This document shows, one piece after another, positions 3,046 to 28,349 of a stretch of 44,111 nucleotides of DNA (the first letter of the stretch is position 1; the number at the start of each line of letters is the position of its first letter). The position numbers were made by a program, and so were the translations under genes. The notes below the pieces were generated by a model that worked only from the letters and a program-made list of their open reading frames with translations, had not been told where the DNA came from and made no database searches. Source of the stretch: a virus; IMG/VR virus record IMGVR_UViG_3300020469_000085, positions 1 to 44,111 of that record. One strand, 5' to 3'.

Positions 3046-6000
3046 TTAATTGTCCAGTAATCTAATGTCGGCATTGGTAGGCATAATAGAATCGCCTGCA
3101 GCATTTTCTGCTACTAGAAGAAGAATTCTCATCCCTGAACCAAACTCACCAGTTGACATCATCCCTCTATACAATCTTCTATAATCGCCATCAGATCCCG
3201 TACCACCTTGCCCGGCTGTACTCATTCTATCACTAGAAATCAAAGTATCTTGTCCGACCGCGCCAGCAGCACAGAAACCGATCAAATCAATTTCTCTGCC
3301 GGTATACATAAATCTTTGCGATCCCAATCTATTTGGAAATTGAATTACAAGTTTTCCACGGTCATTGAGAGATAGTTGTTCAAGTGGATTTATAATAGAA
3401 GTAGAATCTCTTTCATTAACTCCAGCAAATACATGCCTATCCCAAGGTTTTAGAACATCTTTTTCTCGAACAACAAATCTTCTGAATCTACTTTGAGTTT
3501 CCAAATCTACCGATGTCATCTCAGCTGATTCTAGTCTTGATGTCATAAAGTCAAATGTTTGATTCCCTTCAAGATCGTATAGTCCCATATTTGCAATAGA
3601 AGATCTTCTTGACAAATCTTTTTCTGTAAAGAGTGGTTCTAAATCAGAATACAACAATGTCGGTTCTGAAGATTGATATACACAATGAATTGGTTGATGA
3701 TCACTTCCATCAATTCCCATATCAGGATAACCAGCACGAAATTGAGGCGCACTTGTGGTTCCAGTACCAACTTCTGCCGAAGAATGAACGTGTCTTTGTA
3801 TAACAAAAAATGCATTATCATCTGCCTGTGTTGAAGCTTGATCTCTAAGATAAAATGCAATTCCATGATCAACAATTGTCATATAATAACTCATAGGATA
3901 TGCTGGAGCAATATCTGAGCTTGATTTCCCAGTTCTTCTAAACAATCCCTTTTGCAGTCTTAAATTTCCATTATTATATGGTGTATCATGTACTAATTCT
4001 GTAGATGTACCCCTCAAATAATGTTCTTCATATCTATACTCATCATTTACTAAAATACCAGAATCATAATCTGTCAGAATTCTCGATCCAACCACTTTTA
4101 ATGGAATCTGTCCTTCACCCTCGCCTCCAACAGAAAAGTACTTCGGTACGCCTGCTACGGCGGCCACGGTCGAGGCGCCGCTGCCCGATGCTGACACCGC
4201 AGCGACTTCTTGAGTAAATACTGCTGTGTGGTCCAACAGCAGTTCGTGACTATCGTTGAAATGATGGATACCGACAACTCCTGAACTAAAATTAAAACCA
4301 GTTCTAACTCCGCTGTCAAGTTTCGATCTTTGAACAAAAGGATTTACCTTATGAACAGCAGTTTCTAAATACCCTTTATATTGTGGCCTGAGTCCACCCA
4401 AATGGCCTGGTTCTCTCATAGTGGTGGTAGCGGAGAGACCATCTTTCCCCTCGGGTTTTGCGACAGTTCCATCACCTTTAAGTTGAAATTCTGTAGCTAC
4501 ATGAACTTGTAAATATTCAAAAGAATTAGAAGAATCTTGCTCAGGATTAACTTGCAAAACTGCATCTGCAATATAAGGAGAAGCTTCTTGGATTTCATGT
4601 CCTCTGGTGATATTCAATCTTATTCTCCAAGGTTGATCACCTTCTATGTCACCCTCTCTGCCAGTTGGATAACCCGATAATTTGTGAAGTCTATCGGTTT
4701 CTAATACTACTGGACCCATAGAATAATCTGTGATATATTCGAAAGTTTCAATATCAATATCGTGAGAATAAGTTTCAAACTCTTCATAACCTACTATACC
4801 ATTTTGAACTCCGCCATGTGAAGTATTTGGGTGTTGTGCAATTACAATAGAATCGAAAGAAACTTGTGGACCTTCTGGTCTGCCCGTCTTTTTAGCAAGC
4901 ACCATTTGTTCATATGATGAAAAATACGAAGTTTTTCTAGAGGTTGCTGGAGCAACATAAGCTGTATATTGCCCATGAACCGGCATCGCAAAAGTACCTA
5001 AATCTCTCGCCAAAGGAAATTCTAATCTAACTCTTTTAATAGATGTTCCTAACCCCACTTGAATCACTTCGACTGCGCCATTATCTCCACGATAGTTGAA
5101 TGGATCTCCGGTTGTGTCTACAGTTTTAGCAGGAGTAAAATCATTCTCATCTAGAAGTGTTGCAGCGAGATATGTGGTATCTGTAGATGCAGATGTCCCG
5201 TCCGCTGCAACTCGCATTGCAGTTATATTAGTAGAACCGGAAACAGCATTACCCACAATATTGAATTTTGCTGCGGCAGGAACATCCTCTTCTGCGATAC
5301 CATTTATAGAAAATTCTTCGGAATTTGTTTGTCCTACTGTTTTACCAGTAAACAATACGGATCCTGTACCGCCTTGGGCGACACTATTTGCAGCAAGTAA
5401 TCCATGACTTTTTCCAACATCACCCTTTTTCATATATCCAGAAGAAAGTCTATTATATCTGAGAGTAATAGCATTTGAATTTGATATAACTTCCATATAT
5501 TTATTCATATATGCGTTTTGTCTAATCTTAGCAGCTATGGCCTCTGTTAATTGACCTGAGTTTAATGCAACACCTGTCTTAAAATAAATAGTTTCACTTC
5601 TGAGTGCTGGATTATTTACATCTGCCAATCCACCATTAGGAAGTTCATCTAACAGATTATTTATTGTGAACTCAAATTCATCATCGTTGTTTGCACCGCT
5701 AAACCCGCGCAATTGAATTTCATGTACATATCCATTTTCAAATGTGTTTAAGGTGTAAGCCGTACCACCATCGCCATTAGTCATTGTAGAATTGAATAGT
5801 GTGTTGTTATCAGTTACAATATATGATTGTATATTATTAGTAAAATTATCCATAGGTCTTGCAACTCTTGAAACAGATGACGTCAAATTGCTACCAATGT
5901 TGTTAGATTCTATAATTAACACACCATTTCTCTTGGGAGACAGAGTACCGCCATCTATAACAGAATATGCTCCGGATGCAGGATCAAATAATTCATTCTT

Positions 6001-7779
6001 TGAAAGAGCTTCAAAAACTGAATTGGTGAATCCGGCTACAGTACTTTGTACAACTTCTACAGGAATTGTAAATGTTTGTGCTCCAGCGCCAAATGCAGTA
6101 TGACTAAAAGAGAAAGTATATACATCGCCAGTTTGAAACACATTATTGTTATATGTCGAATCAAAACCAATCATCAATTCGCCTTCGAATTTTTTAGGTT
6201 CTACTGTTCCTGCTGGAAAAAAGTTTTCGTCTTTAAAATTTGAAATCCAAAAATCATGTGTGTCTGGGCCTTTTTCTTCTACAGTTTTTCTATAATTTCT
6301 AATAGTTGCTTTTGTATTGATTCCAGATGCAGAATCTGGCCGCATAACAACACCTCGAGATTGGTGTGTAAGAAGAGTTTTTACTTTATTAAATTCGTTC
6401 AAATATACCGCTTTCGAAATCTCCGACAATCCAACATATCCTGCTTGATTAAGATAAGCAGGCAAAGTTCGGTATACAGGAATGCTTGCGATTTGGTTTA
6501 CTTTGCCGCTGGATGCCGTGGGCGCGTTGATGGTGGGGGGTGTCGCAGTTGCGTCAGGCGTGCCGTAAAGGGCGACCAGCTCATATCCATTACTATCTAC
6601 AATATTTTTTTCAGAAAGTTCTGTTCCAGTGGCTGTACCTACTAGGATTACTTCAGAACCGGTCGCTATATCGGGGGACCCTGTCGTTTTTTTATAAAAA
6701 TGTCCGTCCTTCAGATCCAGTGGCCGCGTATTATCTGTCCGATCGCCACGTTCTTTATAAGCACCGGCTTGAGTGGGCCAGGTAAATCCACTTGAGGGAA
6801 CTAAATTCTTTACATCATTCCATCCAGAACCAAATGGAATTCCTTTAACACTACCTATATCGCTGAGAACACTTGAATCTAAAGTCGATATTCCAGTATG
6901 TGTAGATCCGTCTGCACCATTCCAAATACTACCATCATATGTATAGATGACCGGACCGTCATTCGTATGTATTGTGTGGGTATCTCCATTTGTCGGACTA
7001 GATGGAAAGTTTGGGGCAATAAAATCTCTTATTGCTTGTGTACTTCCGCGCATATTTGGATGTGGATTTAAATATGCAAAAAGTTCTGAATTTGGACCTA
7101 ATACTTGTCCAAAAACACTTGTGTCAAGTTCCTGTGCGTCCTGATCGTTCCAGTTCAACGTCGAGCCATTGCTTTGTTTTGCTTCCACATAGCCTGGAAT
7201 CAACGCAGAAACGTGTGTAATAGCAGTTCCGTCAGTAGCTTTAAAGAATTCAGCCGGATAATTAGATGTTCCTGTAATAACATTGTCTAGGGAGCTCGTC
7301 GAATGTGTCCCTTCCCTAATATTATAAGTGGGATATCCAATCGCTGGAATTTTTTTAGCAATATTTTCGTTCCAGTTTGGATTGTCGTATATATCATCAA
7401 TTTTTTTAATTCTACTACCATTTTCTCCATCAAGAAAGTATGTCGTAGCACTTAAATTTCCAACTTCATCTCGGTTAGTATAAACAGATGTGGCGGTATC
7501 ATAATCAGCGATCTTGCCAAAAACATTTATACCGCTGGCACCTTTTCCAACTTGACCAACACTCGAATCGTAATAAAAACAAATAAATTCATCGATAAAT
7601 TGTGTTAAATTATCATCATTGATACTAATCTTGGTAATTTGTGGACCTACATCTTTAAATCCATTATCCAACATATCTTCGGACATCTGTTGGATTAGTG
7701 GTTTGAAGGCCTCTCTTTTCCTATCTCTGTAATAATCATCCATATGGACAATTTCATTTCTGTTTATTGAAATAGACAT
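3046..7779 (-). CDS. Large virion structural protein, member 1 of a four-gene paralogous family
   Basis: This 1577-residue protein has no family I can name. It shares conserved blocks with three other proteins in the window (26013-28349, 21208-25950, 16259-21145): an N-terminal SINRNEIV (compare SIQRNEMI), a block at about 1281-1330 (YPMSYYMTIVDHGIAFYL followed by FFVIQRHV), then IHCVY, then at about 1431 RFVVREKDVLKPWDRHV, INPLEQLSL, LGSQRFMY and, near 1540-1555, YRGMMSTGEFGSGMRI. Its 1280-residue N-terminal part is specific to this member and has Ala/Gly/Thr-rich loops, two of them GC-rich. The ATG at 7779 follows AGGAG. It lies between two fibre-like genes, so a role in the baseplate periphery or fibre apparatus is inferred. 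Confidence 0.85.
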   Translation of the reverse strand: MSISINRNEIVHMDDYYRDRKREAFKPLIQQMSEDMLDNGFKDVGPQITKISINDDNLTQFIDEFICFYYDSSVGQVGKGASGINVFGKIADYDTATSVYTNRDEVGNLSATTYFLDGENGSRIKKIDDIYDNPNWNENIAKKIPAIGYPTYNIREGTHSTSSLDNVITGTSNYPAEFFKATDGTAITHVSALIPGYVEAKQSNGSTLNWNDQDAQELDTSVFGQVLGPNSELFAYLNPHPNMRGSTQAIRDFIAPNFPSSPTNGDTHTIHTNDGPVIYTYDGSIWNGADGSTHTGISTLDSSVLSDIGSVKGIPFGSGWNDVKNLVPSSGFTWPTQAGAYKERGDRTDNTRPLDLKDGHFYKKTTGSPDIATGSEVILVGTATGTELSEKNIVDSNGYELVALYGTPDATATPPTINAPTASSGKVNQIASIPVYRTLPAYLNQAGYVGLSEISKAVYLNEFNKVKTLLTHQSRGVVMRPDSASGINTKATIRNYRKTVEEKGPDTHDFWISNFKDENFFPAGTVEPKKFEGELMIGFDSTYNNNVFQTGDVYTFSFSHTAFGAGAQTFTIPVEVVQSTVAGFTNSVFEALSKNELFDPASGAYSVIDGGTLSPKRNGVLIIESNNIGSNLTSSVSRVARPMDNFTNNIQSYIVTDNNTLFNSTMTNGDGGTAYTLNTFENGYVHEIQLRGFSGANNDDEFEFTINNLLDELPNGGLADVNNPALRSETIYFKTGVALNSGQLTEAIAAKIRQNAYMNKYMEVISNSNAITLRYNRLSSGYMKKGDVGKSHGLLAANSVAQGGTGSVLFTGKTVGQTNSEEFSINGIAEEDVPAAAKFNIVGNAVSGSTNITAMRVAADGTSASTDTTYLAATLLDENDFTPAKTVDTTGDPFNYRGDNGAVEVIQVGLGTSIKRVRLEFPLARDLGTFAMPVHGQYTAYVAPATSRKTSYFSSYEQMVLAKKTGRPEGPQVSFDSIVIAQHPNTSHGGVQNGIVGYEEFETYSHDIDIETFEYITDYSMGPVVLETDRLHKLSGYPTGREGDIEGDQPWRIRLNITRGHEIQEASPYIADAVLQVNPEQDSSNSFEYLQVHVATEFQLKGDGTVAKPEGKDGLSATTTMREPGHLGGLRPQYKGYLETAVHKVNPFVQRSKLDSGVRTGFNFSSGVVGIHHFNDSHELLLDHTAVFTQEVAAVSASGSGASTVAAVAGVPKYFSVGGEGEGQIPLKVVGSRILTDYDSGILVNDEYRYEEHYLRGTSTELVHDTPYNNGNLRLQKGLFRRTGKSSSDIAPAYPMSYYMTIVDHGIAFYLRDQASTQADDNAFFVIQRHVHSSAEVGTGTTSAPQFRAGYPDMGIDGSDHQPIHCVYQSSEPTLLYSDLEPLFTEKDLSRRSSIANMGLYDLEGNQTFDFMTSRLESAEMTSVDLETQSRFRRFVVREKDVLKPWDRHVFAGVNERDSTSIINPLEQLSLNDRGKLVIQFPNRLGSQRFMYTGREIDLIGFCAAGAVGQDTLISSDRMSTAGQGGTGSDGDYRRLYRGMMSTGEFGSGMRILLLVAENAAGDSIMPTNADIRLLDN

Positions 7780-7831: not shown

Positions 7832-7839
7832 AAAAAAAA

Positions 7840-8757
7840 TTACACACCGTTAATAATGAGATCGATATTATCCTGTGTACCATTTGCCATGAAAAAATCT
7901 ACTTCGCCGCTAATCATTTCGTTGCCTGTGAATGTAGTTGTCAATGGAATATCATCCCTTGTACCATTAGTTTTTGTAAATTTTATAAACCCACCAGTTC
8001 CAAAATTATCATCAGGTACGAATTTGCCAGTATTTATATCATAAGCAATACTAACTTTACCCGCTGCAGACACTTGGGCGTTTGTATGACCGGAATATTC
8101 AAAATTTTGCAAGTTATTTTCTATGGTGTTTTGATCTGTAATAATTGTTGTTTCTACGCCAATAGCTCTGGTTCTTTCTGAGAATATAGCAGAATCCAGA
8201 AGTCCATCGGAATTTTTCAAAGATGTAGAGGTTGTCAAATAATTAGTGGTGCCATCGGCAGTATAAGTCCCATCCGCATTTAGTCCTGCTGCTGATTGTG
8301 TCGTATCAAGTTCGGATTGCAATGGTGTAAGATCTAAACTTGCGGTTGTAGTGTTTGTATTTGGATCATATGTCGAAATTATACTACCAGAAAATTCTAT
8401 ATTTCCCGTAATATTAGTATCGACCGTTAATGCTTCTGCAAGAGCTATCCAACTAGAACCAGTTGAATAATATAAATTAGAATTAAGCAAAGCTAAACGA
8501 CCACTATCAGCAACCTCAGATTGTAGTTCTGTCAATGTATTATATGTATCAAATTTTATCAAATCAAAATTTGATCTTACTTGACCTTTTATTGCTAATA
8601 ATTTTTCCGAATCGGTGGCAGTATCAGGGAGTCCACCATTACCGCCTGCACCAGTTCCGCCGTCTAAAATGCCAACGAAATCAGATTCTAAAAACTCTCC
8701 AAGTACAACATCTCCGGTAGTTTGTACAATAGCCTTGAGTGGAAATGCGCCTGCCAT
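7840..8757 (-). CDS. Fibre-like structural protein, 305 residues
   Basis: Starts MAGAFPLKAIVQTTGDVVLGEF after a strong AGGAGAT site. The N-terminal segment (VLGEF..SDFVG) is of a type seen at the start of fibre proteins in T4-like marine phages. Residues 55-120 look like a short helical shaft (LLAIKGQVRSNFD, LTELQSEVADS). A module near 165-200 (GTTNYLTTSTSLKNSDGLLD) resembles GSNYLSTANNLQGAVSLLD in the 396-residue protein at 31350-32540. The end repeats DDIPLTTTFTGNE and DNIDLIINGV, consistent with a small beta-rich tip. It sits between the tail-tip peptidase and a large paralogue, so it is probably a fibre or fibre-connector subunit. The exact function is not known. Confidence 0.75.
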   Translation of the reverse strand: MAGAFPLKAIVQTTGDVVLGEFLESDFVGILDGGTGAGGNGGLPDTATDSEKLLAIKGQVRSNFDLIKFDTYNTLTELQSEVADSGRLALLNSNLYYSTGSSWIALAEALTVDTNITGNIEFSGSIISTYDPNTNTTTASLDLTPLQSELDTTQSAAGLNADGTYTADGTTNYLTTSTSLKNSDGLLDSAIFSERTRAIGVETTIITDQNTIENNLQNFEYSGHTNAQVSAAGKVSIAYDINTGKFVPDDNFGTGGFIKFTKTNGTRDDIPLTTTFTGNEMISGEVDFFMANGTQDNIDLIINGV

Positions 8758-8791: not shown

Positions 8792-9730
8792 TCAACCAGT
8801 AGCATAACCATATTTTTTCAAAGTAGATATTGCCCAAGGGAATCTTGGAATACTTGTTCTACTGCCATTTGATCCCCATGCCCGTTTGCCTCCAATATCA
8901 ATGTGAGTGAAAGTATTATACAATCCAATACCCTTTATTCCTTTTTGGACACATATATCAATAAATCTAGCTCTATCTGTTTTACTATAACTAGACATTA
9001 TAATGTCCGTGGCCTTACCCTGTTGGTGCATACTTCCTTTAGCACCACCAACCTTTTTGTTATACTCTGGACTGCGATAGGCGCTGGTTATGTCAAGTGT
9101 CCGGCCCCATTCTTTAGCAACTTCAATAAGAATATTTTTCAGTGCTGGTTCAATTCTAGAATCTGTGTGTGGTAAGAAATTCAATGTTGGATCATCAACT
9201 CTTTCAAATGGAACACTATTATCTTCTATTGGAGCATCTTGTGGTCCGGTAACATTATTTACAGGACTTGTATTATTTGATAAGTATCCACCATCGCCAT
9301 TAGATATTCCACCATCACCATATTCAAAAGTTTCACTATTTTTTGGTGCAGTATTTATTCCTTCTTTCATATAATCTTCATGTTCTTGCGTGATATCTAC
9401 CGGAACATCCGATAAAGGTGTCACAGGTGGAGAACTATCTCCAGCAAAAACATTTCCACTTCCATCTCGAACATAAGAACCACACGCCACTGGATCGTTT
9501 ATTCTTCCGATTGGTTTTCCATTTGCAAAAACTGTTGCAGATCCAGCAGCAAGAACTGAACCATGCGGCGCATATATTTTTGGTGGACATACATGAACAT
9601 GCCACCCATCGCCTTTTCTATGTGCTCCCTTACTATTTACAAATACATCTGTACTTGCTGATCTATTCGGCCGAGGCGGGTGACAACCATGACCGGTACA
9701 TTGATCTCCTAATCTAGTTACAGCTGGCAT
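8792..9730 (-). CDS. PAAR spike-tip protein fused to an M15-family peptidoglycan peptidase
   Basis: Residues 1 to about 100 are a PAAR domain: MPAVTRLGDQCTGHGCHPPR, then HVHVCPPK, GSATVFANGKPIGRINDPV, CGSYVRDGSGNVFAGD, with the usual Cys/His residues for zinc. PAAR proteins cap the spike of contractile machines; T4 gp5.4 is an example. After a Pro/Asn-rich linker, residues about 185-312 form a peptidase M15 domain (Peptidase_M15_3 / VanY-like): LDITSAYRSPEYN, SMHQQGKATDI and FTHIDIG, giving zinc ligands H235, D242 and H276. Such enzymes cut peptidoglycan peptides. The protein should sharpen the spike and locally open the cell wall during infection. The gene overlaps the upstream gene by 17 bases and has a GAGGGGG ribosome-binding site, suggesting translational coupling. 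Confidence 0.93.
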   Translation of the reverse strand: MPAVTRLGDQCTGHGCHPPRPNRSASTDVFVNSKGAHRKGDGWHVHVCPPKIYAPHGSVLAAGSATVFANGKPIGRINDPVACGSYVRDGSGNVFAGDSSPPVTPLSDVPVDITQEHEDYMKEGINTAPKNSETFEYGDGGISNGDGGYLSNNTSPVNNVTGPQDAPIEDNSVPFERVDDPTLNFLPHTDSRIEPALKNILIEVAKEWGRTLDITSAYRSPEYNKKVGGAKGSMHQQGKATDIIMSSYSKTDRARFIDICVQKGIKGIGLYNTFTHIDIGGKRAWGSNGSRTSIPRFPWAISTLKKYGYATG

Positions 9731-12700
9731 AAACTGGATACCCCCTCAATTCTCTTACATCGTCTACATTATTATAGAAAGTCTGTTCGTCAACATTAAA
9801 ATCGCAATTTATTTTAAATACTTGTTTTCCGTTTTCTGTCTCTGAAATTGTATCCAAACTTTGTCCTCTATCTCTACCATCGTTTATAGGAAATTCTAAA
9901 ACGAAATCTTCACTAGTAATAGACATTATCAAATAATCGTTTTTTTGCCACATGTTGCTCTTTCTGTCAATATAGATAAATCGATCCAAGAAATTTTTAT
10001 ATTTTATTTTTTGATCGGGATCGATATAAATTCTACTTTCTACAATAATATCTCTTTCTTCTAAATATCTTTCTATACTTATAATAGAATCTTTATACTC
10101 TTTCATATATCCTATCAACATTTTGTCAATTTCGTTATTATTTAATTGTGGATCAAATAATCCCCTACCCTTAGATCTTTGATCTTCTACCCAATCAGTC
10201 CTGTTGGGGAATTCAGAATCAATGATAGAGCTATCTGTAAACAATCTCAAATCTCTATCAAATGACCAGTTGTTGCGTATTGTAAATATTAATTTTATAA
10301 ATTTTGTTACAACACCGCCTGTCAACATCTCAAGATCATCTACAACAAAACTATCTCCTTCTTCGTTCAACACATATTGATAGTTTACCTGTTTTCCAGA
10401 TGGTGTCTTTTCTATATAAGCATATCCAGTAGGATTTACCAAATCATTTTCTATAATAGTTGCACTTAATTCTTCTATTTGTTTTTGTAGAACTGAAGCT
10501 TTAAAATTGACAGAAAATTGCAATTCTTCTTGTAGATTATTTACTTCTTTTTGTAATTCTGACTTTCCGTCGACAAATGTTTCTACAAATAAGTCTGTCA
10601 ATGTTGTGATTTCTATCTCACCCCTAAGATTTTCAAATTCATATCTGTGAATAGTTTCAGTGATTAATCCGCCAGTAGCTCTATCGGTTTCTTTGTCAAA
10701 TTCTGAAACCTTTTCCACAATTTCAAATTCGCTACTTTGTCCCGCTATAGTCTGTGTTATTATATCACCTCTTTTTAATTCTACGCCATTATATACTAAA
10801 TCTATCGTTCCTTTGGTTATACTTCTGCCGGTGAGGTTGACTTCCCACTTTCTCGGTGTAATCAATTCAAAATCTTCATATGAAAAATCTAAACTGTCAG
10901 ATAGAGATATAAAATTACCATCTGAATCCGTTTCACCTTGTATTTTCATCCAATCTTCCCATGAATATTTTCTTAAAAATTTATCTGTTTCATGTACCGT
11001 TCCTGTTAATCGGCCATCATCAAAAGACAGACATTCGGGAAATCTACCGTTACTCGGATCCTCATCTATTGTATAGATAAAATTAAAAGTAGATTTTTCT
11101 TTATCTAATCTCCAATCTTCAGAATATGGACCTTTTGATTTTACATCATAATCCAGATATTGAAATTCATATAAATCTATATTTTGAATTTCTCTGTACT
11201 CTCCATCTCTATGAGTACCCGATCTTCCAGCAGCCTGTAGACTATTTTCTACATGCTCTTCCAAGTTAAATATTTTATTTTTGATAGAAGTTGGCCCAAC
11301 TTCAATAGGTAAAAGATCGTGACCAAACGCATTAGATCCGCCAGATAAACTCGGTCTTTTTGTCTGTATCACTTCATAAAATGTGTGTCCAAATTTATTA
11401 TAATCAAATTGGGTAGATGAAACAACCTCGAATTTTTCCATAATAAATTCATAGACCTGTTCATAAGATCTGAATCCTGGCCTATACAATTCCTCTATCA
11501 TTAAATGTTTGAACTTGTTTTTTGGGCCTTTTCCAATCGAAACGGTGCTGTGCATATAATTTTGTTCTATGAGAAATGTCTTATCTGGTGATTGTAAAAA
11601 AGGTTTAAACTTTGGCTTCCCAGTATCAAAATTCACAAAGAAAACCTTGTGAATAAATGGTTTATCTAATACCGGAGTATAGAAAACTTTTACAGGAACC
11701 TCTAGAGGATTCGTGCGTTCAAAATATGCCGTTTTAGAAAATTCAAAATTTAAAACCTTTATTTTATCTACCCAAGTAACATCATTCAAAGTAGTGTTTT
11801 TGACAATTTCGACAAATCCATCATCTCTTGAACTATAATTATCTAATAATTTTGAAAATTGATTATTTTTTAAAAAAGTATCTCTTGGATTGCTGACTGT
11901 TAAACTTATGGAAACAGCCTTATCTGCTGGTGGTCCATATCCCAGAGATCTATATATAGTGTTTGATTGGTTAAACATTTCCGGCTGCATAACATACAAT
12001 CCGCTTTTCATTTCTATTACATCATGAGTACTAGGATTGGATATGTGCATTGATCTTGCAAAGTTTTGATTTAATAAATTAAATGATTCTAAATGTCTTG
12101 AGAAATTAGAATTTTCGTCAATTAACTTTGATGTTTTAGAAATAAACTCAGTCGGTTTTGGAAAGTTGTATGCAATTCCTTGAAAAAATATTGGACGGTG
12201 TCCAAAACTGGTTCCAGATTCTAATAAAACTTGACCATCCCATGGCGGAGCTTTAGATTCTGGATCATCTAAAAATGGATTGTTGATAAGATGTTTTGAG
12301 GATGCTGTCTGTAGAAATGGTCGAATTTCCCAATCGCCTACAGTTTGTAGTCCAACTTTATAATCATTTCCAGTTATCGTATACAACAATGATTGATTCG
12401 ATAAAACTATATTTCTGTTAAAATCGAATGATTTTTTAGAAGCAGATCTATCTTCATATGAAGAAAATGTTCCTGTCATATAATTAAATGATTCTACAAT
12501 TACCGATGATTTTTGTTCATCAACATATTTTTCGTGGTGATATTCGGCAACAAATTCACTATTTGATTTTGGCCCAGTGTGAAGGGGCAATCCATCTGTA
12601 TATTCTACAATGACTTCTGATGATGATTTTTCTGTAGATGAAAAAAAATAATTTACATATGATACCTCGATACTGTAATTAGAATCGAATATTATATTGT

Positions 12701-12761: not shown

Positions 12762-12762
12762 A

Positions 12763-19200: not shown

Positions 19201-21145
19201 CTGGCTGTCTAAACACGGCATTTTTTATACCATCCCGACCTTGTCCACTTGTCAGATCACCATTATCCATAATTTGTAAGGAAGTTCCAACATTAACATA
19301 TAAATATTCATCTCTTGAATCATAATAAAATCTCATACGCCATTTTTGAGGTTTTCTCTGGTCTCTGACAGGTTGTGTTAAGTTTATCGTTCTTGGTATA
19401 GAAACTGAAGCTGAGCTCACATCGGCTAAAGATGAAAGAAGATCTGTCGCCTTTTCCGATTCTACAACAAACAAATCACCTATCCGACGAATACAACTCA
19501 TAACATCTCTATGATTTTGTTGTCCATTATCTCTAATGAGAATATGATTTGATGCAAATTCATCTATTCTAGGATAAATTAAATTATAGGGTTGCGCTTC
19601 GAATCCGCCAAGATTGGTATCGGGATATGTGCCGTTTGGATCAGCATGTTGGTCTATACAAAGTCTCCAATGATCCATAAGATAGAACTCCTGATTTGGA
19701 TCATCCCAAGTATTTACATCCTCTTCATTATAAGTTCCAGATTTTACCATAGTACAAGTCGCTACACCATCAGCCACGGCAGTAATATACATAGTACCAC
19801 TTCCGTAGGGTTCTATAATTCTCTTCTTTATATCCTCAGATTTAAAGCCGCCAGTCAATTCTGTTAATGCTACATTGGTTTCTCTATCGCGCAGTGTTGC
19901 TGTCACTTCAGCGGTGCCGGACGTGACCATAGTGCGCGGAGCGCCCGTCAGCTGCAGAGTAGCTTTTCTTTGAGCGACAGTACTCCATGCAGAACTATAG
20001 TAATTTGCATATGGATGTAAACAGAGGTCCTTAGCAAGTGTTCTTAAAAATCCATCTTCAGTCTTTGTGTCGATATTGGTGTCAATTGTATATTCCATAA
20101 CAACATCAACACCTGCTTCAAAAGATTCACTTCTCCAAATTGCAGTACCATGATCTAAATCAACTTGAGTTTGATCTGAGACTGATGAGACAGTTAATAC
20201 TAAATCATTTACGCCCACAGAATCGTCTTGAATTCCGCCCAGCTGGGATTGTGGGATTGTGAGTGTATCACCAACCAAAAATTTTTCGCCATAAGAACAG
20301 AAAGTAACTTTGCTAATTTTTCCTAATTGATTTACAAAAACTTGTATCATTAAATTATCTACAACACCATCAGTGCTATCGGTAGTAATTACTTTGTCGC
20401 TTCCGATTCCATTATGAGAAACAAACCAGACGCCCGGCCTATGTCCTGTCAATGTTGAAGATGTAATATCTATACTTGTTATTGCTCCCACACCCGTATC
20501 TTCGGTTTCTCCATTAAGTCTTGTTACAACGAACTGTCCTAACAATGGAGTTTCATCAATTTCCATTGTCAATGCTGGATAACCATTACCAGTATCCCCA
20601 GCGAGAGTGTAATTCTGTCCACCATCATGTATTGTAAATGATGTTATAGAACCGTTACCATCAGCCTTACAAGTAATGTTAGCTGGTCGAGGGACTTTGG
20701 TGTTTGTTTGTCCACCTCTGACACATACTCCATAATCAGCTCCAGGCGTATATCCTTGACCACCATTGGAAATAGCAAACTGTTGAATTACTCCTTCGCC
20801 CAATGGAGATGTAGAATCAGTTAAAACAATAGTTCCTAAAGTAGCTTTGTTAGAACCAGTTGCAAATTTATAAGTTAGAGGTTTTTTGACAGAACTAATG
20901 ACACCATTTTGAACTTCTCTTTTTTCTGATCTTATTTCGTATGCCGGAACTCTATCAAGTTGTTCTTGTGCTCCTCTGCCAAGTCCTTGTGCCGCTCGAT
21001 CAAACTTAGCGAAAGTTTGATTAAATTCGTTCATGAACTGAAATCTCTGCCGTTGTCTTGTTTGGGGGATTGATATCATCTCATTCCTTTGAATGGAATA
21101 TCCCCCCGACAGAAATGGAGTTTTCAGTGAGGTTGATGTTGGCAT
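16259..21145 (-). CDS. Large virion structural protein, member 2 of the paralogous family
   Basis: A 1628-residue protein sharing conserved blocks with 21208-25950, 26013-28349 and 3046-7779. Blocks: SIQRNEMISIP (17-27); FVVESEKATDLLSSL and KPQKWRMRF near 560-605; YPMAYRLTCTDHGIGFFMF, YAWFVIQRHV and SPVHCLYSPSKRP (about 682-740); RFVVRENDVLKPWDYHV (about 1387); INPVEQLSI, LASQRFIY and GNGMRLF near the end (about 1590). Between the IQRHV and LKPWD blocks lies an insert of about 670 residues with a GC-rich Ala run. Residues about 105-190 hold two copies of a beta module (FAISNGGQGYTPG, FTIHDGGQNYT). The start follows TAAGGAG. The order of the blocks is closest to the 1580-residue neighbour. Probably a peripheral baseplate or fibre protein; the exact role is unknown. 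Confidence 0.87.
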   Translation of the reverse strand: MPTSTSLKTPFLSGGYSIQRNEMISIPQTRQRQRFQFMNEFNQTFAKFDRAAQGLGRGAQEQLDRVPAYEIRSEKREVQNGVISSVKKPLTYKFATGSNKATLGTIVLTDSTSPLGEGVIQQFAISNGGQGYTPGADYGVCVRGGQTNTKVPRPANITCKADGNGSITSFTIHDGGQNYTLAGDTGNGYPALTMEIDETPLLGQFVVTRLNGETEDTGVGAITSIDITSSTLTGHRPGVWFVSHNGIGSDKVITTDSTDGVVDNLMIQVFVNQLGKISKVTFCSYGEKFLVGDTLTIPQSQLGGIQDDSVGVNDLVLTVSSVSDQTQVDLDHGTAIWRSESFEAGVDVVMEYTIDTNIDTKTEDGFLRTLAKDLCLHPYANYYSSAWSTVAQRKATLQLTGAPRTMVTSGTAEVTATLRDRETNVALTELTGGFKSEDIKKRIIEPYGSGTMYITAVADGVATCTMVKSGTYNEEDVNTWDDPNQEFYLMDHWRLCIDQHADPNGTYPDTNLGGFEAQPYNLIYPRIDEFASNHILIRDNGQQNHRDVMSCIRRIGDLFVVESEKATDLLSSLADVSSASVSIPRTINLTQPVRDQRKPQKWRMRFYYDSRDEYLYVNVGTSLQIMDNGDLTSGQGRDGIKNAVFRQPGELSEIYYNFSNDDNKAKSGFFRRQGKTDDGIDSNYPMAYRLTCTDHGIGFFMFDQASVDQDDDYAWFVIQRHVNNVSGKIEGEDGKSPVHCLYSPSKRPEETSDFNMGFFAEVVNKLDPETGTTTVTSKTLGDLEIFDINGRKLTPGLPLNQSILTSGFPVMSRTTPYGQGTSYVTPPSTGGLRLTDASNMGTDLTSGYSNVNDFIEFPPVTSANYTGLEKSNLDDSAVIDEVVVDGTVTEPAIFAFPMGYGRNFGSNFVTVGDYYVDMKNETRYTDASSGNSIPSAFFRAAGGVTEGDTTGRDDMGLANYVNARNQMQGPSRLGLKLHRVRHRTASGFDTILDVGDIQFINRSEQPPRVDKDNKPLELPVSSAVAIFTPKSSAALNLLKTRSIKIMYYDYVTFTYDGTTSTIITPTITSAAAAGVSDGSETEPTAQNRANYDTATYDFSSTIAAITELGSENTGTPENGTETNGPISILKTEIVPVPGLANNIGGSTQKYYAHKSLSDTDNTTEDTSGTGSFSTRIGNINAAGNEQVLPRVGDIVTLNEWVTEGSASQTLSVEGSSALTSTSERPAARITNILSSFPEGDRLIYEYAWEGAGHNSEYTNFYGRSGIGSNPLFETNRLKVFVDGLEADAAIQGINYDINSDGEIEFGETSSSLEYFGVEKPIYAYNTANDKLKFALPVEDNKIVKLSYENYSDVEERDTGKSTYLIKVPEDRDIPNIWNDIHKVSKGIYRFVVRENDVLKPWDYHVSAVLPQIDSPACINPVEQLSITQDKTVIFNFPTPLASQRFIYSDAEADIICIAGADSSTQGGIIKTSDTKFDLDSAQTSGYMNAAESDFTYPSSPTEPQYGFDDDGIAANEGNAKVAKSSNGDFLDFRREYSWHNPFQGTVNTTANNSNLGYRSGRVAATPSTAFDTPDNCTHRTYLGMQSTKPYGNGMRLFILTRGGPIRPQYTDYTPRDQVDSGNNDFTTP
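18977..19024 (-). repeat. 48-bp segment identical to 23782-23829 in the neighbouring paralogue
   Basis: These 48 bases encode the DQDDDYAWFVIQRHVN core and match bases 23782-23829 without a mismatch, although much of the rest of the two genes is diverged. This is the best DNA-level trace of the duplication. Confidence 0.9.
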
Positions 21146-21207: not shown

Positions 21208-24200
21208 TTAGGCTACAGGTGCGGCGCCATTTTCTACATCACTATATGAAATACTAGATCCGGTAACTTGTAAGAATATTCTCATACCATTTCCATTTGG
21301 CAATGTTGAAGGCATACCCTCATACCTTCTTTTATTTTTTCTCCAAATCTGGTAAGATCCATCCGGCGCCTCATGCCCACCATAAGCGCCAGCGTTTGTA
21401 GCGGTTATCTGATTTTTATCTTCATTGATTTCGTTGTTGGCGTCCGATGCCGCGCTGATAGCTATTTGAACTGGTTCTGTATAAGTGCCGGCCGTGATCT
21501 TGCCATCAGAGTCATTATACTTATCAATTTCTACATATCCTGCTTGAGTTGAGAAATCAGCAGAAGAAACACAAATCAGATCCAGTTCACTTTCTGGATA
21601 GTAAAATCTCTGACTTGTCAATTGTGTTGGGAAAGAAAATACGAAATTTCTTCCTTGAGTAATCGAAAGTTGTTCTTGCGGATTTATAATAGCATGCGAA
21701 TCTACTTCGTGCATGGTTGCAGAAACATGGTAATCCCAAGGCTTCAATACATCTTTTTCTCTTACGACAAATCTATTGATGGACTTAACATCGTTCATAT
21801 TTGTTTCGGGGAAATTTCTATCTTCGGGTGTAGAAATAATATAAGTTCCCTGAGAAGGATTTGATGTTTGGTAGTTGATCATAGAAATTGAGAATGACGA
21901 TCCTGATCTTGGAGAATTCTTAAAATAAAGAGATTTATTCCAAAAATCATACATATATTCGTTTCTACCAGTTGTATTTGTCCATATTACATCGCCCGGC
22001 AATTTAGAACTCAATTTTGAATCGTTGGCAGAAGCAACCAATTTACTAGAATCAATAACCCAGTGTGGATAATCCACACCCTGCACCCAATCGGTTTCAG
22101 CATCGTCCGTGGGTGTAGTTGTGCTACCACTCGCAAACCCTGAGCCAGTAGTATCCGGCGCGATGATGTCTCCGGCGGCATCCACATGTGAATATATACC
22201 TGTTGTTGTAGTATTCCATTCTGAAAAGAATCTTTTTCCAGTAGTAAAATTCTGTGTAGTATACGAAATAATATTGTTACTTGTAGCGTTTGGATCCATT
22301 CCTGGCTGTAACGCATTGAAATTTGGCACAGTACTCGCATCTATATTAGGAAGTTTAAAATTTGGTCCAAGATTGGTCACACCAGCAGCCTCTAAAGATT
22401 CCATAAATCTAGGAACAGTAGTCGGATCTCCTCTTCTTACCCATTCATCGTAAGTTAGGATATATGCTTTTGAATCTCTTATAACTTCAACTTCATCTAA
22501 GGTTACAACCATAGATTCAAATACTTTATCGACATTTTCTGGTTGTGCTGTATATAAAATGTCCATCAAAGCAGAATCACCTTCTGCATAATTAGTCAAA
22601 TTGATATTTTCTACAGAACTAGGTACACCAGTACCATCTTGAGAAGCATTTTTAAATGTTGACATTCTTTCAATAATTTGGGTTGGCCAAATTATATTTT
22701 GGGAGAGTTGTGAAGATGTGTCATTTCCGATCGCCCAATTAGCGGCGGCCGGTGTCGCATCTAAGAGATTATCACCAGTAGTCGTGATACCACGAATCAA
22801 TGCCTCAGCAGTAACAACACCACCTGTAACTTGTTTTTCAACTTGTTCAACAGCACCTGGCGCTGGTGACGCATTCAATGCTATAGATGTGTCTCTTCTT
22901 CTAGGCAAAGAATTAAATCCTGTAATAGCCAAATCTGTAATCTCGCTGGATGGTCCAGAGATATTCACATATGGCATAGTTTTTAACTTTAAAGTTGTTG
23001 CCTTGTATTCAGCAGTTCTTGTGAGCGCCTCGGTATCTGAAGAAAATGGTTGGAAAGTGCCATCTGTAACATCACCAGAATTTGACATACCAATTTCAAG
23101 CATGATCATACCAGCAGATGTCCCATCATCAGCGTCAATTAATTTCAATAGAGTATCTGCTGCGTTAGTGCTAACATCGGAGAGATTTTCACCTCGAATT
23201 TCATGGCCAGTAATATTATTTACCGATGAAATTGTAATTTTTCCAGTGGATGGGAACCATTCTTTTATTCTACCCCCCCATATAATAGGATTTGTGTCGG
23301 TAACGGAGCCAGCCTTGTTTCTACATGCCAAAAAATGTCCTTTTTGAATTTTTGGTGGATTTGTGGCGTCATCAATTTTAACAAAGAAAGAATATGTTTT
23401 TTCATACCACAAATCAGTATTGATTGCAGACATATTTCCCGACAATCCTCTAAATAAATCTACCTTTACATCAGAAATTTCTAAAGTGGTTGCAGCAACC
23501 GATCCTTGAGCAGTACCAGATGCATATCCATATCCATTAAAATCAATTGCATTTACCCTACCATTAAAAAACGCAGCATCTTTACTGATATATACTGTCG
23601 GTGCTTCAGTTTTATATACACCAGCAAGAGAACTATAAATGGTTGGTGGTTTGCTCATATCGTTTATGTCAGAAGATGAATAATATGGAGTCAGTGTACT
23701 CACATCTGTCGGTCTTTTTGATGGCGAATATACACAATGTACTGGTGATTTATCTGCAAATTCCGGTTGTCCAGTTGATTGATTTACATGTCTTTGAATT
23801 ACAAACCATGCATAATCGTCGTCTTGGTCAACAGAGGCTTGATCAAACAAGAACAATCCCATGCCGTGATCAGTACAAGTCATTTTAAAAGACATGGGAT
23901 AACTGCGAGCCATTTCTTTTTCGATTTGTGATTTTCTAAAAAATTGAGACTTCGCTCGTGAAATTGACACACTAGTACCACGGCCAATAGCAGGAGTTTG
24001 ATATACATCGCACAGTTCGCCCGGCTCTCTGAATATCGGAGACTTTATTCCATCTCGATTTTGCATTATTGATACAGTACAATCATCTAAAATTTGCAAA
24101 TCTGTACCAACATTGACTTTTAGAGATAGTGATGTCTCATCCCAAACAAATCTTATACGCCATTTCTGTGGTTTTCTATTACTTACAGGGCTGTTACTAT

Positions 24201-25950
24201 TAACAAAACTCAAATTACTATCAGACAGGAGATCGACACCTCTTTCTGATTCGACTACAAATCTATCTGTAATTTCTCTTAATTTGGATTTTATATCACT
24301 ATCGGAAGTCGCCAACCCCGAAGTAAGCGGTTGCGGATATATCAATTGAAATGGTCTTGAATATTCATCAGAAGATTTCATTTCCAGATACATAACATCA
24401 GAATCATTAATTTTAGCAGTATTCTTGTGTCTTCCCGAAAAGGACTCGGCGACTGCGATCGCAGACAATGATAATGGACCAGTTGTTGCTTCTTGAGCTG
24501 TTACTATAGTTGCATCAGTAGATCCGCTAGCGGTATGCCATCCAAAAAATGCATTTTTTGGATCAAGTGGTGCCAATTTGGTGGGCGACCTAAACGCCCT
24601 ACTAAATATCCAATACTTTTGTGTGGCTGAATCGCCGATACCACTATCGTAGGCCTGATCATCATGTGGGAAAGATACCTCATTAACTGGCAAAGTCGAT
24701 GTGACTTGATCTGGACCTAGTCCTTGTCTACCAACTAATGCTCCATAAGGAACATCGATAGATTTGCCCCAGACATATGCAATAGAGACTTCGACCGCTC
24801 CAAGATTTCTAATCCAAGGCATACCACTAGTTCTTTTTAATTTAAAAGTCGATCTTCTTGCTTCAACATCGCTGGTAACTATCCAATCATCTCTATTAAT
24901 CAGTTTTCCGTCAATAGAAACTCTAAATTCGCCACTACCAAGATCGCTCTCAATTAATGGGAAGTCTGTCATAAGTGGAATAGTTTGCGCTGTAATCTCT
25001 GCCGCGGTTGAAGCAGCTTGTAATTTGGCCAAGCTATATTCTCCAGCTATTGTGGGCAGCGTGTCCGTACCGAAAAGATCCGCATTGGTTGGCGCGCCGC
25101 CTGTGCCGCCGCTCATATTAATAGTTGCAGTTTCTTTGTGTTCTCTTACGACCTTCCACAAATTCTGAACAGTTCTTTGTGTCGCCTCTTTAATGTCATC
25201 ATCCAATAAATCTTTGTATTTTATAGAGAGGTTGTTTTTAAAAACTTTTAGATCCTCTGCAGCTATACCTGTCAAGACAGCACCAGCTGGTCCCAATGCA
25301 GCGAAATTATTTGATCCTGCGAGACCAGCAGAAGGAATGTTAGATACATATTCTTTACCAGCAGTCCCTCGCTCGTTGCCGGGTTCGGCGGCATTATCGT
25401 CCACGAATTCTGTGTAATTTCCAAAGTGGGCTTGAAATATTTCTGGTGAATCGAAAGGGTGAATACACATATCGTGTGCAAGTTGATATAATAAACCACC
25501 AGAACCAGTAAATTTACTTGTATGTTCTGTATATGAAATCTCAACTATTTCGCCCGGCATTGGTTGAGATGATTCATGGAATACAATAGCTCCAAATTCT
25601 CCATATTGAGAATCATACATAACAGTTCCTAGTCCTGCTGCAAGAGACCCTTCTGTATATGCATTTGCGTTCCATGCCACTTTTTCTGTTGGGTAAACTC
25701 CGCTTGGGCCAACGCCAGTCGAGGTGGTATTATTCCCATTCACCGCTAAAGCAGCTGCCCCTCGTTCTAGATGAGTTCTAACTTCACCCATTCGAATATC
25801 CCAATCCCAATTCTTGTCTTCATAATCTGGCAATGATCTCAAAAGATAGATTCTATCTCCCGAAATTGCATCGTGACTTTCGTATTGTTGCCTATGTGGC
25901 ACTTGTATAACGTCATTTCTCTGAATACTAAATCCGCTTGCAATAGACAT
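21208..25950 (-). CDS. Large virion structural protein, member 3 of the paralogous family
   Basis: A 1580-residue protein, colinear with its 1628-residue neighbour at 16259-21145. Blocks: SIQRNDVIQVP (8-18); LAHDMCIHPF near 165 (the neighbour has LAKDLCLHPY); FVVESERGVDLLSD and KPQKWRIRF near 570-610; YPMSFKMTCTDHGMGLFLF, YAWFVIQRHVN and SPVHCVYSPSKRP (about 680-740); TPEDRNFPE and RFVVREKDVLKPWDYHV (about 1393); INPQEQLSI, LTSQRFYY and RRYEGMPSTLPNGNGMRIF near the end. The segment between the IQRHV and LKPWD blocks is about 670 residues and mostly different from the neighbour's. The ATG at 25950 follows AGGAG. It is a virion structural protein by context and family; the site in the particle is not known. 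Confidence 0.87.
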   Translation of the reverse strand: MSIASGFSIQRNDVIQVPHRQQYESHDAISGDRIYLLRSLPDYEDKNWDWDIRMGEVRTHLERGAAALAVNGNNTTSTGVGPSGVYPTEKVAWNANAYTEGSLAAGLGTVMYDSQYGEFGAIVFHESSQPMPGEIVEISYTEHTSKFTGSGGLLYQLAHDMCIHPFDSPEIFQAHFGNYTEFVDDNAAEPGNERGTAGKEYVSNIPSAGLAGSNNFAALGPAGAVLTGIAAEDLKVFKNNLSIKYKDLLDDDIKEATQRTVQNLWKVVREHKETATINMSGGTGGAPTNADLFGTDTLPTIAGEYSLAKLQAASTAAEITAQTIPLMTDFPLIESDLGSGEFRVSIDGKLINRDDWIVTSDVEARRSTFKLKRTSGMPWIRNLGAVEVSIAYVWGKSIDVPYGALVGRQGLGPDQVTSTLPVNEVSFPHDDQAYDSGIGDSATQKYWIFSRAFRSPTKLAPLDPKNAFFGWHTASGSTDATIVTAQEATTGPLSLSAIAVAESFSGRHKNTAKINDSDVMYLEMKSSDEYSRPFQLIYPQPLTSGLATSDSDIKSKLREITDRFVVESERGVDLLSDSNLSFVNSNSPVSNRKPQKWRIRFVWDETSLSLKVNVGTDLQILDDCTVSIMQNRDGIKSPIFREPGELCDVYQTPAIGRGTSVSISRAKSQFFRKSQIEKEMARSYPMSFKMTCTDHGMGLFLFDQASVDQDDDYAWFVIQRHVNQSTGQPEFADKSPVHCVYSPSKRPTDVSTLTPYYSSSDINDMSKPPTIYSSLAGVYKTEAPTVYISKDAAFFNGRVNAIDFNGYGYASGTAQGSVAATTLEISDVKVDLFRGLSGNMSAINTDLWYEKTYSFFVKIDDATNPPKIQKGHFLACRNKAGSVTDTNPIIWGGRIKEWFPSTGKITISSVNNITGHEIRGENLSDVSTNAADTLLKLIDADDGTSAGMIMLEIGMSNSGDVTDGTFQPFSSDTEALTRTAEYKATTLKLKTMPYVNISGPSSEITDLAITGFNSLPRRRDTSIALNASPAPGAVEQVEKQVTGGVVTAEALIRGITTTGDNLLDATPAAANWAIGNDTSSQLSQNIIWPTQIIERMSTFKNASQDGTGVPSSVENINLTNYAEGDSALMDILYTAQPENVDKVFESMVVTLDEVEVIRDSKAYILTYDEWVRRGDPTTVPRFMESLEAAGVTNLGPNFKLPNIDASTVPNFNALQPGMDPNATSNNIISYTTQNFTTGKRFFSEWNTTTTGIYSHVDAAGDIIAPDTTGSGFASGSTTTPTDDAETDWVQGVDYPHWVIDSSKLVASANDSKLSSKLPGDVIWTNTTGRNEYMYDFWNKSLYFKNSPRSGSSFSISMINYQTSNPSQGTYIISTPEDRNFPETNMNDVKSINRFVVREKDVLKPWDYHVSATMHEVDSHAIINPQEQLSITQGRNFVFSFPTQLTSQRFYYPESELDLICVSSADFSTQAGYVEIDKYNDSDGKITAGTYTEPVQIAISAASDANNEINEDKNQITATNAGAYGGHEAPDGSYQIWRKNKRRYEGMPSTLPNGNGMRIFLQVTGSSISYSDVENGAAPVA
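23782..23829 (-). repeat. 48-bp segment identical to 18977-19024
   Basis: Second copy of the perfect 48-base match between the two long neighbouring paralogues; it encodes the same DQDDDYAWFVIQRHVN core. Confidence 0.9.
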
Positions 25951-25976
25951 TAAGGTCTCCTATCTAATTTTCTTAT

Positions 25977-25984: not shown

Positions 25985-26012
25985 AAAAATATTTTGTTGT
26001 TTCTCTTTTTAA

Positions 26013-28349
26013 TTATACTTCTATTCCAATTGGATCGTTGATATCCAATACTACATCACTATTATGAATATTCTGTCCGTTTACTAAAGCCATAATTCGC
26101 ATACCGTTACCAAAAGCTGCCGTGGAACGCATACCCTGATATCTGCGTTTATCTATGCTTGTACCATCATACTTATAAGTTGTCATTGGAATATTACTTG
26201 ACTCCGCAACTACTTCAGCAGATGAAAAACAAATCAAATCCATTTCTTCTTTTGGGTACATAAATCTTTGAGTCGTTAATCCGGTCGGAAATGTTATAAC
26301 AAATCTGTTTTCGTCCGTGATAGATAATTGTTCAAGTGGATTAATGACTGCGTTGCTGTCAACTTGATGTCGTGTGGCAAATTTATGAACATCTGTGGGT
26401 TTTAAAATATCAAATTCTCTTGCAACAAATCTCCAAATATTTTTTGCAGTATATTCATCTGCAAGATAATCTTCTCTATCATATGGACTGAGAATATAAA
26501 ATGTTTTGCTATTATCTAAGTTTGATAGATTATATGTGTTGCCTGATTCGTCATAAACTGTATCTACCGTATTTTCTGCATTTTGCAAATTGGCCGCTTC
26601 CTGAGAAAAATAAACACCAGCATCCCTAGAATATATAGAATCTCTTGAACATGAATACATCGTATGTAATGGAAACTTTGAACCTTCATCTGTTCTTGTT
26701 ACACCGGTCTCATTATTTACAGTTCTTTGAACTGCAAGCCATGCATAATCATCTGCCTGATCGGATGCAGCATCATCGTGAATATATAAAAATATTCCTC
26801 TTTCTGTCATAGTAAGTCTATATGAAAATGGATATGACCCTTGTAAAACTGGTTCTGTTTTAGGAAATCTTTTAAACCAACCAGAACCCTTTTTCTTATT
26901 TCTAAATCGAAGAGATCGGTTGTTTATATATTTTTTAAATCCCGTTACAGAACTTGGAGCCGTATCAGAACCCCATGTAGCAGACCCATGTGAAGTAGTA
27001 GGTACATACAACGTCAACAATGGAAATTCTGTAACAGTTTTTGCAACAGATGTTCCAACACCAGAAGATACTGTCCCGCCTTCAATGTATTGTTGAGCAG
27101 TACTCCAAAGAGTGCCATCTAATGGAATTGTACAATTTGAGTTCATATATACTCTAAATTGAGTTAAACTGCCAACAATAAGTTTTACATAATATGTGTT
27201 TCCGTTTAATGGGTTTATCGTCGGAGAGATAGAACTAAAATGTACTGGTTGGCCGTCAGTATATCCATGTGCCGCAGAGGTGGTCACAATCACAGGACTC
27301 GTATTAGTGACATCAGAAATCGGGGTGGTAGAAGCAGTGTTAGCAATCGCTCCATCATATTGATTTGATGCGTATTGATCTAAAAACACAGGAAAATAAT
27401 ACTTTGGTTGTGAATTGTCTTCTGTTATAGTCCCTTGTATATAATATGGACCTGTGTTGGAAGGGTCTGAAAGAACAGTGACATCTTCAAATGTCAAATC
27501 TACACACTCTCCTGGCATCCTCAAAATAGATGTATCTACTGTAGAACCATTTTCCAGTGTTATTAATCCATTGGTTTCTGTTTGTGGACTAGAAATATCA
27601 CCAGATGCCAATAATTGATTTGAACAACCCACATTAACCTTAAACCATCCATACATAGGATTTGGAATACCAATTTGATCCTCCCAACCAGAACTCCCAC
27701 TAAAACCAGATGCTGGGAGAATAAAATTATCAGGCCTGTATACTGTGTCGGGATAGTAAGAATTTGGTTTGAACGCTTGTTCGTTTATTTGGTTGCCAGC
27801 AGAATAATGATAAAGTCCTAAAGAATCCATTCTCATATTTAATTGATATAATTCTTGAGCAAATTCTCTGTCACCCAATCCGGTCCCATGATTAAAATAA
27901 AGTCTCGGTCTCAAATCTAACTCAAAACGTATCCTATAATTTTGATCCAATCCCCTAGAAACTGTACCGTTATTGGGTAAAATATCATTTGTGGATTGAA
28001 ATAACATAACATGTTGAGAGGGCGCAGAAGGTGTTGACTGACTATAGTTAGCAGACCCAGAATATGTTCCCGAAAAATCGCCTGTTCTGTTGAGTGATAT
28101 TTCTTCAAAGAATTGTTTTGTTATGGGTACATTAGATGAATCTATTAATTCATTTCCGACATCTGGAGCTCCGTTAAACATACCCCAAGTATTTTTCATA
28201 TCTAACGCTAAGGCCATCATCATTCCACCCGACACGACTTCATTAGAGTCGATAGAAGCGGTTCCATCAATTTTAGTAAATCCAGTTCTGAGTCTACTCA
28301 TTCCATAATTTGAGAATGTAGCGAGATTTGTTATTTGCCGTTGAGCCAT
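26013..28349 (-). CDS. Virion structural protein, shortest member (about 778 residues) of the paralogous family
   Basis: Holds the core of the family with few insertions: RIRFELDLRPRLYFN near 140, WFKVNVG near 230, YPFSYRLTMTERGIFLYIHD and YAWLAVQRTVN (about 501-545), FPLHTMYSCSR, YILSPYDRED, RFVAREFDILKPTDVH (about 640), INPLEQLSI, LTTQRFMYPKEEMDLICFSSA, and RRYQGMRSTAAFGNGMRI near the end. Residues about 340-416 carry a beta module often seen in phage structural proteins (TTSAAHGYTDGQPVHF followed by NTYYV). The start is uncertain: TTG at 28358, ATG at 28355 and ATG at 28349 are all in frame. I prefer 28349 (MAQRQITNLA) because it is 10 bases after AGGA, while 28355 is only 4. It probably shows the ancestral layout of the family. 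Confidence 0.85.
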   Translation of the reverse strand: MAQRQITNLATFSNYGMSRLRTGFTKIDGTASIDSNEVVSGGMMMALALDMKNTWGMFNGAPDVGNELIDSSNVPITKQFFEEISLNRTGDFSGTYSGSANYSQSTPSAPSQHVMLFQSTNDILPNNGTVSRGLDQNYRIRFELDLRPRLYFNHGTGLGDREFAQELYQLNMRMDSLGLYHYSAGNQINEQAFKPNSYYPDTVYRPDNFILPASGFSGSSGWEDQIGIPNPMYGWFKVNVGCSNQLLASGDISSPQTETNGLITLENGSTVDTSILRMPGECVDLTFEDVTVLSDPSNTGPYYIQGTITEDNSQPKYYFPVFLDQYASNQYDGAIANTASTTPISDVTNTSPVIVTTSAAHGYTDGQPVHFSSISPTINPLNGNTYYVKLIVGSLTQFRVYMNSNCTIPLDGTLWSTAQQYIEGGTVSSGVGTSVAKTVTEFPLLTLYVPTTSHGSATWGSDTAPSSVTGFKKYINNRSLRFRNKKKGSGWFKRFPKTEPVLQGSYPFSYRLTMTERGIFLYIHDDAASDQADDYAWLAVQRTVNNETGVTRTDEGSKFPLHTMYSCSRDSIYSRDAGVYFSQEAANLQNAENTVDTVYDESGNTYNLSNLDNSKTFYILSPYDREDYLADEYTAKNIWRFVAREFDILKPTDVHKFATRHQVDSNAVINPLEQLSITDENRFVITFPTGLTTQRFMYPKEEMDLICFSSAEVVAESSNIPMTTYKYDGTSIDKRRYQGMRSTAAFGNGMRIMALVNGQNIHNSDVVLDINDPIGIEV

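Follow-up and report, generated by a model that had tools for sequence, protein, structure and literature searches.

A Conserved Core Shared by Four Paralogous Virion Proteins of a Marine Phage and Its Possible Assembly into a Heteropolymeric Fiber

Four paralogous genes at one locus

The IMG/VR virus record IMGVR_UViG_3300020469_000085, 44,111 bp in length and analyzed here as a whole ("the window," or G000), carries its late genes on the minus strand, and among these are four large genes, termed A to D, whose products are paralogues of one duplicated virion-protein family. All four open reading frames (ORFs) are present on the minus strand where an initial annotation had placed them: A at 3046–7779 (1577 amino acids, aa), B at 16259–21145 (1628 aa), C at 21208–25950 (1580 aa), and D at 26013–28349. 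D is listed as an ORF starting from a TTG at 28358; the ATG at 28349, from which 778 aa are counted, is the better start because the orthologue G001_170192, encoded by a 203.8-kb relative (G001; other contigs and phage records bear G- or L-numbers), begins at that residue. Together the four genes amount to 16.7 kb, close to the earlier estimate of about 16.5 kb.

The paralogy is evident from a BLAST comparison of A–D with one another and with the window's remaining large ORFs. The best E-values are 2.8e-59 for B–C, 2.5e-35 for A–D, 9.8e-28 for C–D, 2.8e-22 for A–C, 9.3e-22 for B–D, and 3.8e-19 for A–B, and a control of 50 shuffles per protein produced two chance matches in total (E 7e-4 and 2e-3). 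Every sequence block that the initial annotation had listed as shared was found again in the same order, with small variants such as SINRNE, IHCVYQ, and GSGMRI in A, and YPFSY..T..ERG, LAVQRTV, RFVAREFDILKPTD, and TQRFMY in D. These blocks are shared, as proposed, but they are not separate modules; rather, they are conserved parts of one core of ~330–400 aa that has been split by loop insertions. Nor is the N-terminal block missing from the short protein D, as had been thought: its predicted model keeps an N-terminal strand (residues 19–27, around GMSRLRTGF) and a helix (46–55), matching the N-terminal strand 3–11 and helix 14–27 of the minimal family members introduced below. This block is weak in A, and in D it is located through the predicted model only.

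A virion-protein family of jumbo myophages

The family, for which the initial annotation had no name, is phrog_12249 by profile match (E 2.7e-34, 3.8e-32, 6.7e-40, and 1.8e-48 across the four proteins). No other PHROG was matched by A–D at E ≤ 0.01, nothing in Pfam rose above the cutoff for these proteins, and a direct PDB sequence search gave no match. A tblastn search of 50,697 phage records returned 65 that match, nearly all of them jumbo myophages, including NCTB, PaBG, Lu11, HRDY3, and Erwinia, Dickeya, and Yersinia phages. The jumbo-phage members are 320–400 aa in length and frequently occur as adjacent copies; named examples are PaBG gp261, Lu11 gp246/gp247, Y3 gp151/gp152, NCTB 241–244 and 246, and Atu_ph07 gp321/gp323. 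A profile built from 83 such minimal members spans most of the core in each of A–D, and the family profile finds no match in phages CBB, phAPEC6, RaK2, BpSp (a curly-fiber phage), and T4.

Jumbo phages carry between 1 and 6 copies. An IMG/VR scan added 62 contigs, which carry, counted in the flanks near each match, one (12 contigs), two (45), three (1), five (3), or six (1) copies. The highest number, six copies of 305–654 aa in a row, is seen in L125 (3036–11293). Further scans with D and C as queries yielded marine relatives of the window, and within those large marine contigs that were searched end to end, D, C, and B lie next to one another, with A downstream wherever the contig reaches. 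Two marine contigs (L058 2–8107 and L061 3–6815) encode D-like proteins of 2270–2701 aa, open at the contig end and far longer than D of the window. Separately, the records PV550095.1 (Alcaligenes phage Afa-NA1, 78 kb) and PV359490.1 (Salmonella phage Sen-NF, 108 kb) have identical match statistics for their phrog_12249 genes, which is odd for such different hosts and jumbo-type genes, and these records are possibly incomplete or mixed.

That the family belongs to the virion is indicated by PaBG, where gp261 was found among the virion proteins by mass spectrometry and is listed, with no function given, at 34,778.2 Da in Table 1 (PMC7412058). The PaBG member of phrog_12249 is PaBG_00261, whose mass counted from its fifth residue (Met5) is 34,777.7 Da; because the two masses agree, its identification as gp261 is secure. 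This detection and the pairwise paralogy together bear out the proposal of a duplicated virion-protein family with a shared core. The two sheath proteins of PaBG are gp213 and gp76 (PMC7412058). Thus, phrog_12249 is a virion protein in PaBG, and not the sheath of that phage.

The latter point matters since phrog_12249 carries the label "tail sheath," which also stands in the RefSeq records of PaBG, Lu11, Y3, and Dickeya and Erwinia phages and which would make A–D sheath proteins. The sheath C-terminal domain PF17482 has no match in the window, however, and sits in a separate gene in seven relatives (G001, G005, NCTB, PaBG, Lu11, Y3, and Atu_ph07), the sheath gene of G001 being gp18-like, 1061 aa long, and apart from the phrog_12249 genes. 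The named structural matches in the PDB and in BFVD likewise include no sheath. By the absence of PF17482, the separate sheath genes, and the PaBG literature, a sheath identity for A–D is rejected; we lend it practically no credence, and the label of phrog_12249 appears to be wrong. A gene annotated as tail sheath does lie ~5–8 kb from the phrog_12249 genes in Y3 (L063 4666–6345), Afa-NA1 (L005 7515–9092), and NCTB (L001 10476–12116). Given this proximity and the two PF17482 matches each in NCTB, Lu11, and Y3, a second sheath and the phrog_12249 family may form one module.

A conserved core interrupted by long loops

Each of A–D consists of one conserved, β-rich core of ~330 residues with long inserted loops. 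An AlphaFold2 model of PaBG gp261, computed with the 83 aligned minimal members, is mainly β with a single N-terminal helix and reaches a predicted local distance difference test score (pLDDT) of 93.0 and a predicted template modeling score of 0.92. The family thereby gains a confident core fold, one without a PDB match at E ≤ 0.001. The confident elements of the D model follow the order of PaBG gp261, N-terminal strand and helix included, and the best BFVD matches of that model include the NCTB member and both Atu_ph07 members.

When A–D are mapped onto the PaBG core, each of their insertions of at least 20 aa falls in a loop. The most expanded site is the loop at PaBG gp261 206/207, between strands 199–204 and 211–217, which has received 636 aa in C (residues ~746–1381; 21808–23715), 633 aa in B (residues ~749–1381; 17003–18901), 55 aa in D (26460–26624), and 46 aa in A (3508–3645), all on the minus strand. 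Further insertions lie between strands 82–88 and 149–155 and between 276 and 301. A long insertion, hundreds to about a thousand residues, separates the N-terminal block from the remaining core; in A, where the core occupies residues ~1046–1557, the preceding N-terminal insertion is of ~1000 aa. Median identity to orthologues in core and inserts, respectively, is.68 and.33 for A,.85 and.41 for B,.75 and.40 for C, and.85 and.48 for D, a contrast that is favored by the method because core positions were chosen via the conserved profile, though the difference is still large. A conserved core with variable inserts suits an assembly core bearing variable exposed parts.

A probable distant link to the JBD30 tail fiber

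Clues to what such cores might build come from a Foldseek search of BFVD with the PaBG core, which gave 14 matches at E ≤ 0.001. Its top five are family members, either known or likely. Two of the others could be placed, as MAR10 gp045 (K7RFJ5, 295 aa; assigned by length and record) and FoX4 gp30 (A0A858WHP8, 321 aa; assigned by length), with E-values of 6e-5 and 8e-5 and a probability of 1.00. The BFVD matches A7KUT2, A7KUT3, and A7KUT4 may belong to phage 0305phi8-36, which has curly fibers, and are not used as evidence. MAR10 gp045 and FoX4 gp30 are each the second gene of an adjacent pair right after the tape-measure gene, and these pairs, FoX4 gp29/gp30 and MAR10 gp044/gp045, match phrog_687, as do JBD24_049/JBD24_050 (E < 1e-98).

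The phrog_687 pairs in turn lead to a solved structure. Along its full length of 307 residues, JBD24_050 matches PDB chain 8rk3_S (E 6e-199), and MAR10 gp044 matches chain 8rk3_c, the 8rk3 chains being JBD30 proteins. The order of the genes and the pairing of the chains identify 8rk3_c and 8rk3_S as JBD30 gp47 and gp48, the chain names not being part of the paper's text. The JBD30 baseplate bears three lateral tail fibers, each made of three gp47/gp48 heterodimers rotated by 180 degrees, and the two proteins have similar folds and pilus-interaction surfaces (PMC11445458).

An hhalign comparison of 18 phrog_687 sequences with the 83-sequence profile gave local matches of which the top three (E 0.006, 0.07, and 0.14) are colinear and extend across both proteins, with the best at the N-terminal block. 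The top score was 27.9, against at most 23.6 in 200 column shuffles, none of which gave a colinear triple, and the reversed profile yielded one weak match and nothing comparable to the real result. On this comparison, distant homology between phrog_12249 and phrog_687 is probable, if not proven. The arrangement as two adjacent paralogous genes, as in phrog_687, recurs in our family, with D, C, and B adjacent and two copies near the match in 45 of the 62 jumbo contigs.

Repeated duplication

A tree of 124 core sequences over 200 columns resolves the orthologues of A, B, C, and D as four clades (support 1.00, 0.99, 0.97, and ~0.84, respectively) inside one marine group (0.97), in which the four copies are old. 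Elsewhere, sister paralogue pairs are found in Erwinia/Dickeya phages (0.997), in Lu11-type phages (0.95), and in L126/L128 (0.90), and NCTB-like phages have five copies. According to this tree, duplication therefore happened separately several times, although gene conversion could mimic part of the apparent separate events. Repeated duplication of a gene able to work singly is, we infer, what would be expected if a homo-oligomer becomes a hetero-oligomer. A–D exemplify a single virion protein that has been duplicated again and again and has taken up huge insertions in its loops.

Genomic setting

By a reading of its ORFs, the relative G001 encodes terminase, gp18, gp19, portal, and gp23 in the order expected for a T4-superfamily phage, its gp23 being ~56% identical to those of Methylophilales phage Melnitz, pelagiphage HTVC008M, and cyanophage S-SKS1. 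In the window, a T4 gp8-like baseplate wedge gene (39797–41479, minus strand; phrog_438; PF09215 E 6e-17) places the A–D cluster next to baseplate genes. Between it and the paralogues lies a gene for a DUF4815/VrlC-like structural protein of 2336 aa (32754–39764, minus strand). There follow two genes, then D, C, and B, an acidic protein, a 1035-aa protein, a PAAR/M15 protein, a 305-aa protein, A, and a fiber gene, and the same order is found in G001.

Several of these neighbors have features of their own. The acidic protein (12763–16188, minus strand; 1141 aa) is very acidic and contains many near-repeats of DDTPDSPQQFETAT, and the 3′ end of its gene overlaps the next gene (9714–12821) by ~59 bases. 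The PAAR/M15 protein (8792–9730, minus strand) fuses a PAAR spike-tip domain to an M15 peptidase (PF05488 + PF08291); its G001 counterpart is 102 aa long and apparently the PAAR part alone. A weaker similarity than that among A–D links the proteins encoded at 7840–8757 and 31350–32540 (minus strand), which are 29% identical along 141 aa (E 3e-6); the shared stretch is probably coiled, and the cluster may hold a second, smaller duplicated family. A similar N-terminus around QK(I/L)D(I/F)LWKK is found near family genes in Atu_ph07 gp324 (L140 14490–15422) and at G001:200743–203815.

Possible assemblies

The initial annotation had proposed that the copies occupy different positions of one hetero-oligomeric ring or fiber set. 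A single hetero-oligomeric assembly does fit, because JBD30 gp47 and gp48, with their similar folds, assemble as heterodimers in a fiber, and between ring and fiber the latter is favored. The reading that we prefer, at just short of an even chance, is that A–D are subunits of one heteropolymeric fiber or arm, situated at the tail or baseplate and exposing the variable loops. By analogy with JBD30 gp47/gp48, the cores would pack next to one another, with non-identical subunits alternating, and the resulting fiber or lateral arm would attach at the tail or baseplate. The four kinds A–D would then represent different positions along one heteropolymer, and the inserted loops may face outward and contact the host or its surface polymers. 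Such an arrangement would give an unassigned and mislabeled virion family a testable role, and the paired-subunit fiber architecture, solved so far in a single siphophage, may also occur in jumbo myophages and those of the T4 superfamily.

A number of observations weigh against this preferred reading. The structural comparison suggested at the outset revealed one core order in the models of PaBG gp261 and D, but the model of D is itself poor (pLDDT 60), and Foldseek of the PDB with the PaBG core found nothing at E ≤ 0.001; the 226 matches at E ≤ 10 had, among the best 50, probabilities of at most 0.08 and no 8rk3 chain. With no 8rk3 chain among these 50, the link to the solved fiber depends on structures predicted for other phages, together with a weak profile match. 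Comparison with the siphophage proteins gives TM-scores of 0.40–0.51 and root-mean-square deviations of 7–10 Å, and the hhalign probability is just 6%, smaller alignments of 5–6 sequences having given 0.3–0.4%. The genes of the window follow gp8/DUF4815, whereas the siphophage pair follows the tape-measure gene. Finally, a heteropolymer is not obligatory, since there are phages with just one copy near the match (PaBG and 12 of the 62 contigs, in flank-limited counts).

A closed hetero-oligomeric ring, or the wedge periphery of the baseplate, would accommodate A–D without a protruding fiber. The genes lie between gp8 and tail-fiber genes, with PAAR/peptidase genes among them, where T4 keeps gp9–gp12, and the four copies recur in the marine group with a strongly conserved core. 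The closest fold relatives, however, assemble into a fiber, and the 1–6 copies across related jumbo phages are easier to reconcile with an open polymer than with a closed ring, so that we regard the ring as unlikely. It is improbable that each of A–D is an independent homotrimeric receptor-binding fiber or spike for which the core is a mere common attachment domain: the inserts evolve fast and account for the larger part of A, B, and C, but minimal members are the core alone, which is then not merely an anchor, and the conserved core extends over the length of the protein rather than being placed at one end.

A further candidate role lies in the hair-like whiskers of the "hairy Myoviridae," whose hair proteins are stated as not known (Day et al.). 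The family is present in Lu11 and Y3, both reported as hairy, in JA29 and AD1, two Dickeya phages that are classed as hairy, and in Atu_ph07 with its "hairy" whiskers, and is thus a defined candidate for the hair proteins. Yet the profile has no match in CBB and phAPEC6, which are hairy phages of the Rak2-like type, so the family is not in every hairy phage, and PaBG carries the family while its electron microscopy description mentions just small appendages at the tail end. The appendages of the Dickeya phages are described as unclear, the whiskers of Atu_ph07 are mainly on the capsid, and the co-occurrence may reflect kinship because most hairy carriers belong to one lineage. That the A–D family forms these whiskers is quite unlikely in our view. 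It is rather unlikely that phrog_12249 would make up the hair filaments of Lu11, Y3, and Atu_ph07 as linear heteropolymers of small β-rich subunits, elaborated in the marine T4-like lineage into a four-component filament with ~600-aa fast-evolving display loops.

Comparison with known systems

The proteins A–D resemble the minimal phrog_12249 members in their family profile match, in the secondary-structure order of D, and in the common occurrence of adjacent paralogues. They differ in size, being 780–1630 aa via loop insertions as opposed to cores of 320–400 aa, and in that four copies occur in a T4-superfamily marine phage. In gene order, A–D take the same place after gp8 as the T4 baseplate fiber region; in T4, this interval holds gp9–gp12. 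Unlike those proteins, A–D have no match above the cutoff in Pfam, and phrog_12249 is their sole PHROG match at E ≤ 0.01. JBD30 gp47/gp48 (phrog_687; PDB 8rk3 and 8rk5) offers fold-level similarity through BFVD and a weak, shuffle-supported colinear profile match, and shares with phrog_12249 the adjacent paralogous genes of similar size; in contrast to A–D, it belongs to a siphophage, follows the tape-measure gene, and is without long insertions, and homology between the two is uncertain. As linear heteropolymers of small β-rich subunits, the proposed phrog_12249 filaments would depart from the common trimeric β-helix fibers.

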